From NCBI GenBank assembly GCA_003278345.1, contig QCFH01000005.1, forward strand, positions 1 to 64,000: DNA of 64,000 nucleotides, given 5' to 3'. How positions within the stretch are numbered: the stretch's first letter is position 1; every line of letters starts with the position of its first letter. The stretch is from Prochlorococcus sp. AG-363-C02 (GTDB lineage: Bacteria; Cyanobacteriota; Cyanobacteriia; PCC-6307; Cyanobiaceae). This document shows, in pieces, positions 8,726 to 42,386 of this stretch. The translations under genes and the position numbers were made by a program. A model generated the notes under the pieces. That model saw only the letters and a program-made list of their open reading frames with translations. It searched no databases and was not told where the DNA came from.

Positions 8726-9124
8726 TTAGTAGCTATACCTATCTTCTATATACTCTTCTGTTTCGTTTTCTTTATCTGAGTTACTATCGCTTGGAATCAT
8801 ATCTTCAGGCTTAGGTTTGGGATAAAGATCGCCAAGAAATTGAATGCAATCATCGTATTTTTCAGTATTTCCAACAACTTGCTGAACAATAATTGTTGCC
8901 GCTTGTTTCGGTGAAATTTTAAACAACCCTCCTCTTTCATTTTTTAGAGATGTATAGGCTGCTTGCCAGCTGGCTTCATGTGTATTTCCACCGTTTCTCA
9001 TCACACAGTAAATATCAACTGCTTGAGAACCAGCTTTAGCTGTTTCACCTCCAACGACAGATGCTATTGTCAGAACTCCTATTGATAATGGAAGTAAAAT
9101 GAGATTCTTTTGTCGACGCATCAC
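8726..9124 (-). CDS. Hypothetical secreted protein
   Basis: N-terminal signal peptide MMRRQKNLILLPLSIGVLTIASVVGGETAKA. Confidence 0.6.
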   Translation of the reverse strand: MMRRQKNLILLPLSIGVLTIASVVGGETAKAGSQAVDIYCVMRNGGNTHEASWQAAYTSLKNERGGLFKISPKQAATIIVQQVVGNTEKYDDCIQFLGDLYPKPKPEDMIPSDSNSDKENETEEYIEDRYSY

Positions 9125-37822: not shown

Positions 37823-37949
37823 GTAAAGATTGTATTCAAGCAATTTAGAATCAATCCCAATTTATAACTAAAATTTTGGTTCTTATTACAAGTAAATATA
37901 TTTTTTCTAGAGTTTTTGAGGATAAGAAGTATTAGAGTTGATATTCAAG

Positions 37950-38063
37950 AGGTTCCAATTGAGATCAGCTATTGGAGGTAACGGGGAAAAGTGGTGAAAA
38001 TCCATTACTGTCCCGCAGCTGTGAAATATCGAGATTCTCGATATCAGTCAGAATGCCCGCCTT
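37950..38063 (+). promoter_or_regulatory. Cobalamin (AdoCbl) riboswitch
   Basis: Conserved core aacggggaaaagtggtgaaaatccattactgtcccgcagctgtgaa and 3' gtcagaatgcccgcc, immediately upstream of the HupE ORF. Confidence 0.92.
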
Positions 38064-38090
38064 ATTTCAAAATTCGACGAGGATCGATCA

Positions 38091-40507: not shown

Positions 40508-40572
40508 GAGACTCTTTGCACTGGAATAAAAGAGCAGCCCTTTCAGGCTCCATAGATCATGTGGGTAATAAG
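40508..40572. repeat. Diverged copy (A) of tmRNA-terminator-like element
   Basis: Aligns without gaps over 65 nt with 41286-41350; 16 mismatches by my hand count, stem partly conserved. Confidence 0.65.
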
Positions 40573-40693: not shown

Positions 40694-41134
40694 ATGCTTA
40701 AAAAGATCTTTAGCCTTATAGCCTTCATGGCTTTCTCTTTGATGAGTTATGCACCGATTGCTATTGCCATTGAAGATAATGCTCCTGTTGATGTTCAAGA
40801 GATTTTCACAAGTACAAAGCCAATTTATGGTGAGTCATTTACATACCCCGAAGGCAAAGGAGAAATGCGTCTTTATAAAGTTGATGTTCAACCAGGTGGA
40901 GTTGTACCCCTTCATTTTCATGAGGCACCATTAACTAGTTATATCGAATTGGGTCAATTAACACTTAAGACTAAGCAAGGTAGGAGTACAACTTTTCGTG
41001 AGGGTGATTCTTTTGTCTTAGCAGCTGATACTCCTCCTCATACCATGGCTAATAATGGAAAAGTACCAGCAGTTATGTGGGTAACTGTTGCAGCAGCTGA
41101 GGGTGTTCCTACTCTGACCAATGTTGAAGAATAA
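40694..41134 (+). CDS. Secreted cupin-domain protein
   Basis: Signal peptide MLKKIFSLIAFMAFSLMSYAPIAIA; cupin PLHFHEAPLTSYIELGQL, PHTMANNG. Confidence 0.85.
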   Translation: MLKKIFSLIAFMAFSLMSYAPIAIAIEDNAPVDVQEIFTSTKPIYGESFTYPEGKGEMRLYKVDVQPGGVVPLHFHEAPLTSYIELGQLTLKTKQGRSTTFREGDSFVLAADTPPHTMANNGKVPAVMWVTVAAAEGVPTLTNVEE

Positions 41135-41147
41135 TTAGTTGCGTTTT

Positions 41148-41351
41148 ACAGCCGATTGCTATCGGAACTAGATGGGCTGACTGAGGTCAGTCCTTTTTTA
41201 TGGGTTAGAGACGATTGAGAATTCCTTTTGAAGAGAAATATTGGATTTTGCCCCCAAAGCCTTTTTTCCCTTTTTCTGAGATATTGAGACTCACTGCGCT
41301 GCAATTAAAAAGGACGCCTTCCAGCGTCCATGGATCAATTGGGTCATAAGG
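41148..41351. repeat. 204-bp direct repeat, copy B
   Basis: Identical by eye to 41882-42085. Confidence 0.95.
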
Positions 41352-41416
41352 GACATCAAATATTTATGCTTGATTCGCCTAGTTCAGCTATAACTTGCTG
41401 GTATCTCTAGAACTTA

Positions 41417-41848
41417 ATGCGCCGTTTTTTACTTCTTGCACTAACAGCTGGAATTTCTATCCCAATAGTTGCTTGTAGTCCTAAGAAGCAAACATCACGT
41501 GAACCTGTGGTGGTGGAAACTCTTATTACTGCAACTGAATCTTGGAATGGAGATTCTTTTAAGTATCCAGCAGGGCAAGCAGAAATGAAATTAGAAAAAA
41601 TAACTGCTCAACCAGGTTTTAAAACACCTCTTCACTTACATCCACAACCTGGAATTATTTATGTACAAAGAGGAACTCTTTATTGTGAGACTAGTGATGG
41701 AAAATCCTTGACAGTAGGTGCTGGAGAAAGCTTTGCTTCTTCGCAGGATACTATTCATTACTGTGAAAATAATGGTGATGCAGAGATGGTAGTTTTTGTT
41801 GCTTCCGCTGGTTCTAAAGGCAAAAAAACAACTGTTACTAAGGAATAA
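41417..41848 (+). CDS. Cupin-domain protein, possible lipoprotein
   Basis: MRRFLLLALTAGISIPIVACS lipobox-like leader; cupin PLHLHPQPGIIYVQRGTL. Confidence 0.83.
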   Translation: MRRFLLLALTAGISIPIVACSPKKQTSREPVVVETLITATESWNGDSFKYPAGQAEMKLEKITAQPGFKTPLHLHPQPGIIYVQRGTLYCETSDGKSLTVGAGESFASSQDTIHYCENNGDAEMVVFVASAGSKGKKTTVTKE

Positions 41849-41881
41849 ATCAAACTTTCAATGCTTGAATAAAGAAGGTTG

Positions 41882-42085
41882 ACAGCCGATTGCTATCGGA
41901 ACTAGATGGGCTGACTGAGGTCAGTCCTTTTTTATGGGTTAGAGACGATTGAGAATTCCTTTTGAAGAGAAATATTGGATTTTGCCCCCAAAGCCTTTTT
42001 TCCCTTTTTCTGAGATATTGAGACTCACTGCGCTGCAATTAAAAAGGACGCCTTCCAGCGTCCATGGATCAATTGGGTCATAAGG
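41882..42085. repeat. 204-bp direct repeat, copy C, ending at the 3' end of the tmRNA coding piece
   Basis: Identical by eye to 41148-41351, offset 734 bp. Confidence 0.95.
42041..42064 (-). terminator. tmRNA intrinsic terminator
   Basis: Minus strand ggacgc-tggaag-gcgtcc-ttttt. Confidence 0.8.
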
Positions 42086-42300
42086 TTGATCTAACCCCAT
42101 CTCCTTTATAGGGTCAAGCAGCAACAGGGGCTGTTTGACGGGAGAAACTAACGATTTTGTTAGCAGTTATGGTTTTGCTCTAACCGAGCAGGTTTCAGTA
42201 AAACTCCTTGAATCCCGTCGAAACCATTGCAGCCCCAATGTTATGGAGCTGAGCGGAATCGAACCGCTGTCCGAGATACTGGTGTGATCCACCTAGTTCA
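42084..42300 (-). ncRNA. ssrA: Permuted (two-piece) tmRNA; tag peptide ANKIVSFSRQTAPVAA
   Basis: Minus strand: acceptor piece ...GGACAGCGGTTCGATTCCGCTCAGCTCCA first, then GGGGCTGCAATGGTTTCGACGGG... with reading frame GCTAACAAAATCGTTAGTTTCTCCCGTCAAACAGCCCCTGTTGCTGCTTGA; GGGGCTG/CAGCTCC acceptor pairing. Confidence 0.95.
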
Positions 42301-42386
42301 TTCAAAATGAACATAACTATTCTGACAGATTTCTAAACTATGAACTAATTTCATCTAATCAATGCAAACAAACTTCTTAGCCACTG

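Follow-up and report, generated by a model that had tools for sequence, protein, structure and literature searches.

Copies of the ssrA 3' end bound small gene cassettes next to the tmRNA gene in Prochlorococcus

Williams, in 'Traffic at the tmRNA gene' of 2003, is said to have described integrative elements and islands at the tmRNA gene ssrA, including the 3' end of the permuted cyanobacterial ssrA, and for the tycheposons of Prochlorococcus described by Hackl et al. in 2023 the reported targets are seven tRNA genes. We examined an interval beside ssrA in a Prochlorococcus genome, within a stretch of 64 kb (the window), and consider it probable that the repeats found there are copies of an attachment (att) site at the ssrA 3' end and that the interval is an additive, site-specific cassette array with a cupin gene as its newest cargo. 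Additive flexible genomic islands offer a further comparison: fGI-2 at tRNA-Lys in Methylopumilus (PMC10872708) and the tRNA-targeted cassettes of Alteromonas (PMC4119200) are likewise islands bounded by repeats of an RNA-gene 3' end that vary in size and in what they contain, the smallest in Methylopumilus being 330 bp. PMC10872708 also describes the Prochlorococcus tycheposons, at second hand.

The window contains, in order, copy A of the ssrA end, the gene cupin1, copy B, the gene cupin2 and copy C, which forms the end of the present ssrA (Table 1). Copies B and C are identical at 204 of 204 nt with an offset of 734; they are the sole exact direct repeat of at least 20 nt within the window, and ungapped extension lengthens them to 216 nt at 98% identity. 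Each begins just past a cupin stop codon and covers the entire intergenic region from that stop to ssrA, comprising a plus-strand terminator, a spacer, the minus-strand ssrA terminator and some 39 nt belonging to the ssrA gene. The first-pass annotation had described a perfect 204-bp repeat at this offset that ends at the tmRNA 3' end. The repeat is exact as claimed, and its end can be placed more finely, 39 nt inside ssrA by the Rfam boundaries (42047-42328) and, in the predicted fold, on the first base (42085) of the 13-nt loop of the ssrA 3' hairpin (the CCTTATTAACC loop). In relatives, changes in the stem of this hairpin are compensated (for example, GACCA/TGGTC and GTCA/TGAC) and the loop is kept. 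Copy A, absent from the first-pass annotation, lies upstream of cupin1 and consists of the terminator hairpin and half of the ssrA 3' hairpin. A search of the window genome for further ssrA-end copies outside these three found none.

Table 1. Positions of the repeat copies, genes and candidate sites within the window
Feature	Position	Strand	Basis or remark
Copy A, outermost, diverged ssrA 3'-end fragment	40533..40572	-	R1, 55.8 bits; profile match E 2.7e-8
cupin1, 146 aa, single-domain cupin, signal-like N-terminus	40694..41134	+	Pfam Cupin_2 E 2.9e-10
Copy B, displaced ssrA 3' end with terminators and spacer	41148..41351	.	exact repeat, 204 nt
Plus-strand terminator of cupin1, in copy B	41174..41199	+	GGGCTGAC TGAG GTCAGTCC TTTTTT; read from sequence
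Single arm-site-like unit TTTTGCCCCC, copy B	41246..41255	+	relatives have a 12-bp-period pair at the same place
ssrA-derived core and ssrA terminator, copy B	41311..41351	-	covariance model R1, 62 bits
cupin2, 143 aa, lipoprotein-like N-terminus	41417..41848	+	Pfam Cupin_2 E 2.5e-12
Copy C, present ssrA 3' end	41882..42085	.	exact repeat, 204 nt
Plus-strand terminator of cupin2, in copy C	41908..41933	+	read from sequence
Single arm-site-like unit TTTTGCCCCC, copy C	41980..41989	+	
Core at ssrA 3' end and ssrA terminator, copy C	42045..42085	-	R1, 62 bits
ssrA, permuted two-piece cyanobacterial tmRNA, tag ANKIVSFSRQTAPVAA	42047..42328	-	Rfam cyano_tmRNA 290.9 bits; ARAGORN
ssrA 3' hairpin, proposed crossover region	42067..42091	-	fold

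A recent tandem duplication of the cupin gene can be ruled out: cupin1 and cupin2 are just 34% identical, as the earlier description of two clearly diverged paralogues implied, and the enclosed gene is thus no recent duplicate of its neighbour. They are best read as the cargo of two cassettes, cupin1 of an older one between A and B and cupin2 of the ssrA-proximal one, the newest insert, between B and C. The cupin1 cassette is also present in G007, G263, G270, G283, G294, G306 and G382, and all 13 of the cupin1 gene holders among the named genomes are Prochlorococcus records; the type of terminator seen after cupin1 is conserved behind cupins in other genomes as well. Matches to cupin2 (85-88% at the nucleotide level) occur in G003, G007, G009, G010 and G016 at sites away from ssrA. 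G007 has the order A'-cupin1-IR-ssrA, with the second cupin absent there and its cupin2 on another contig. In G016 (L050:6392-8928), a stand-alone cupin2 lies about 0.9 kb upstream of a gene for a 417-aa tyrosine recombinase, a neighbourhood that suggests that cupin2 is also cargo of other elements. A motif, GGTTGACAGC[CT]GATTG followed by a terminator, recurs 3' of cupin genes (downstream of cupin2 in L044, L045, L046, L047 and L050), and the same motif occurs at L049:6711-6741, an island site near an integrase and tRNA-Pro for which no cupin gene is listed.

To place this locus among its relatives, we ran a covariance model of the ssrA end (R1; 40 positions, 17 sequences) over 251 family genomes and the fetched loci. 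Extra ssrA-end copies, one to four each, are present at 23 of the 41 ssrA loci read, in two Prochlorococcus-type genera, a count that includes three weak copies (E 0.03-0.07). The window's own genus contributes 4 of 12 loci and the second genus (g79) 19 of 29, a fraction that overstates the frequency in g79 because nine of its loci were fetched on search hints of extra copies. Neighbouring copies define 33 intervals, 32 of them 0.5-2.6 kb long and one of 9.0 kb. The short intervals mostly hold one main gene, the product of which is often secreted: by a crude test, a signal-like start is found in 22 of 31 cassette ORFs of at least 90 aa compared with 6 of 49 control window ORFs, the 22 not being independent cases because several are the same cupin. 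The interval between argJ and ssrA varies between strains, being empty in G028, occupied by surface-polysaccharide-type genes in G002 and G012, and by small genes elsewhere. At 37933-38078, where the variable interval of the window starts, a cobalamin riboswitch lies immediately 5' of a HupE/UreJ-family gene. An unusual cargo, related to photosystem II, is found in G001 and G011 (L031:7826-8149 and the L039 interval at ssrA), where the cassette encodes a protein of 107-110 aa with a Cytochrom_B559 match (E 2e-9) together with a 53-aa ORF.

The order of cassettes varies as well. The cupin1 cassette adjoins ssrA in G007, G283, G294 and G382, is second in the window and G270, and third in G306; a cassette encoding a 62-aa protein is first in G270 and G376, second in G120 and G382, and fourth in G306. 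These two cassettes are found in both orders, cupin1-62aa-ssrA in G270 (in which the outermost copy is weak, E 0.065) and 62aa-cupin1-ssrA in G382. The flank behind the 62-aa cassette, ssrA-adjacent in G270 and part of a displaced copy in G382, is 92% identical between the two genomes, each being the best match of the other. In many genomes the copies stop at one and the same position of ssrA, and those within one array usually differ in their terminators, which is what one would expect if every incoming piece came with an ssrA end of its own. The earlier annotation had named, as the finding that would speak against it, an arrangement common to all relatives with repeats as diverged as the cupin genes; the arrangement is not universal, and copies elsewhere are diverged.

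Variable cassettes thus occupy the same location in different strains between repeats of an RNA-gene end, and the ssrA array works like an additive island. Its target differs from those of the Methylopumilus and Alteromonas islands in being the non-tRNA-like end of a permuted tmRNA, and it has conserved flanks of about 200 nt, arm-like repeats and a matching recombinase clade. With the ssrA elements attributed to Williams it shares the target gene, a 3' end restored with its terminator, tandem elements and a tyrosine recombinase, and direct copies of the ssrA 3' end delimit the window cassettes, ssrA itself remaining intact; here, however, most units are cassettes of 0.5-2.6 kb that have one or two genes and no integrase, spread across a whole clade. 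Because ssrA was reportedly described as a target in that work, the novelty of the target is lower, that of the cassette array not.

The single 9-kb interval, in G240, is bounded by a copy at L064:25-64 and, on the ssrA side, by the copy at 9030-9069. The first gene of the element, 133 nt in from its outer copy, encodes a 401-aa recombinase that has no match in Pfam or NCBIfam and is 26% identical, over nearly its full length, to a 417-aa protein that matches Phage_integrase below the threshold; the element also encodes a 191-aa recombinase (Phage_integrase E 3.3e-22) and an 803-aa protein of DUF3987/helicase type. We searched 121 genomes for relatives of the 401-aa protein and then applied the ssrA-end model to the genomes matched. 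Among relatives of at least 39% identity, eight of nine sit 131-164 nt from an ssrA-end copy (in G061, G109, G113, G031, G023, G019, G118 and G080, all of other genera; the G109 copy is weak, E 0.001), the ninth, from G126 (39%), being away from any such copy. None of the six weaker relatives checked (G134, G103, G148, G099, G025 and G117) is near one. Copy adjacency in the close relatives and its absence in the weaker ones indicate that one recombinase clade is tied to the ssrA site. In G080, G109, G113 and G118, islands of about 10-19 kb lie between this copy and ssrA. Islands of 5-13 kb between ssrA-end copies were also seen in other genera at L055, L056 and L057 (G214, G080 and G198), each with a similar protein of 261-262 aa (M.R.PR.LP.GHSFHITLRCNSRQFLIAKG). 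The two window cassettes contain no integrase or tyrosine recombinase, which are present in the G240 element and the eight others. Elsewhere in the window genome (contig C1, L124:834-1997), a 387-aa tyrosine recombinase adjoins a cobO-like gene and is a possible helper; of the 14 genomes of the genus, most have recombinase matches of about 387 aa. This enzyme is only distantly similar to that of G240.

Features that may be shared with tycheposons are the divergent tyrosine recombinase of about 400 aa beside the site in the G240 element, its helicase/primase-type gene and the remodelling of islands. Tycheposon hallmark genes are absent from the window cassettes; the target here is ssrA rather than a tRNA gene, and most units have no recombinase. 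The array is also reminiscent of integrons in its tandem small one-gene cassettes, the newest probably adjoining the fixed site. An integron of the IntI type was rejected, as neither a recombinase nor attC was seen in the array and the copies are ssrA ends; the site is the end of an RNA gene and the recombinase is of another kind. The att site of phage P-SS2 (PMC2784084) is unrelated, being a tRNA-Met site, and a search of phage records with the flank gave no match. Viral contigs with the core motif were rejected as attachment sites, most being chance matches and the two good ones whole tmRNA genes. These two contigs appear to carry a complete permuted tmRNA gene (L103:1457-1755 and L100:1318-1695), and the presence of psbA-type (D1-like) genes on L103 makes it look like a cyanophage that has a tmRNA of its own.

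Many of the flanks carry pairs of units with a 12-bp period (TTTTGCCCCCGA TTTTGCCCCCAA, TTTTCCCGCA, TTTTCGCCCA or AATTTGGCTT). By one fixed criterion (score of at least 9), such repeats are found in 18 of 76 flanks compared with 29 of 3,000 random stretches of the same loci, counts that are not independent, given the homology among the flanks. In nine of these 18 flanks the repeat begins 76-78 nt from the core although its sequence differs, and the G240 element has its repeat unit at both ends. The pairs resemble arm-type binding sites of lambda-like integrases, for which they are candidates called by their geometry; the window keeps one arm-like unit per copy.

The att-site reading is well supported, and, as far as sequence comparison reaches, the duplicated site, its boundaries, the variable cassettes and their order, the integrase beside the site in larger elements and the arm-like repeats are established. 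In the mechanism we propose, an element carrying its own ssrA end, terminator and flank of about 200 nt would recombine with the resident site in the hairpin loop; the incoming copy would restore ssrA, and the old copy would be displaced outward. Repeated rounds would give a tandem array with the newest cassette adjoining ssrA, a direction of growth that would place the insertion of cupin1 (A-B) first in the window and that of cupin2 (B-C) last. The large elements encode a dedicated tyrosine recombinase, and the small cassettes without one may be moved and excised in trans by such enzymes or may be cut-down remnants. The suggestion of the first-pass annotation that the unit is a one-gene cargo cassette at ssrA, flanked by copies of an integration site, gains support from comparison with G007, which lacks cupin2 there, from the 23 loci with extra copies and from the recombinases of G240 and the eight other genomes.

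What speaks against the att reading is that B and C are identical far beyond the core of about 40 nt that integration alone needs. The lack of an integrase in the window cassettes, the G126 recombinase away from any copy and the single arm-like unit in each window copy also count against it. The longest exact run in the 32 other neighbouring copy pairs is 40 nt, compared with 203-204 nt in the window, and the 204-bp identity is peculiar to the window genome among the pairs compared. G263 has both cupins too, and its two flanks are only 69% identical, so the arrangement does not by itself entail perfect identity. The identity suggests that something happened very recently in this lineage, either a conversion or an insertion whose donor carried the same flank, and the assembler may possibly have polished the last few percent. 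Homologous recombination could in principle explain the locus by itself: RecA would cross over between flanks of about 200 nt, gene conversion or unequal crossover would account for the identity of B and C, and no site-specific enzyme would act on the small cassettes. The 204 nt shared by B and C well beyond the core, the flank of about 200 nt common to cassettes with unrelated genes and an identity confined to this genome, which gene conversion would explain, all fit such an account. We nevertheless consider it unlikely, since many neighbouring copies share just 30-60 nt at low identity, a poor substrate for RecA, and since the copies end precisely in the hairpin loop and dedicated recombinases are found at the same site.

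The att-site reading leaves room for the possibility that the small cassettes are leftovers of larger integrated elements after deletion and are now immobile, for which we see a rather low probability. A 2.6-kb interval of G306 opens with about 145 nt similar to the left end of the 9-kb element in G240, and some copies and flanks are decayed, such as the cupin1 flank of G263, which is without a core; yet the compact cassettes of one genome reappear in others with their left boundaries unchanged and not always in the same order, and cupin2 is found far from ssrA too. The small cassettes are likely to be mobile as units and not the worn-down state of larger elements. That the assembler merged two similar flanks, making the perfect identity partly false, is improbable even for this fragmented assembly (42 contigs, 77% complete), as the same architecture is seen in assemblies made independently, the single-contig genomes G091, G120 and G191 among them, and the boundaries coincide with copy ends in other genomes.

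The best reading of these results is that the ssrA 3' end is a site at which Prochlorococcus strains collect different small, mostly one-gene cassettes, in an integron-like manner and with an unrelated integrase. A more specific proposal, which we offer tentatively, is a tmRNA-based mobile system of single-gene cassettes: integrase-free units with an att flank of about 200 nt, arm sites and a spare ssrA end would be mobilised by ssrA-specific recombinases that larger elements supply in trans, and ssrA would serve Prochlorococcus-type cells as an integron-like capture site for small secreted proteins. On the att-site reading, the 3' end and terminator of ssrA have been replaced repeatedly and the gene has been kept. 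Because one site is linked to a tyrosine recombinase clade and to suggested variants of arm sites, mobilisation of one-gene cassettes in trans is directly testable. For streamlined ocean cyanobacteria, the locus offers a view of the gain and loss of single genes at a fixed, short position that shows the cassette, its order and its att flank.
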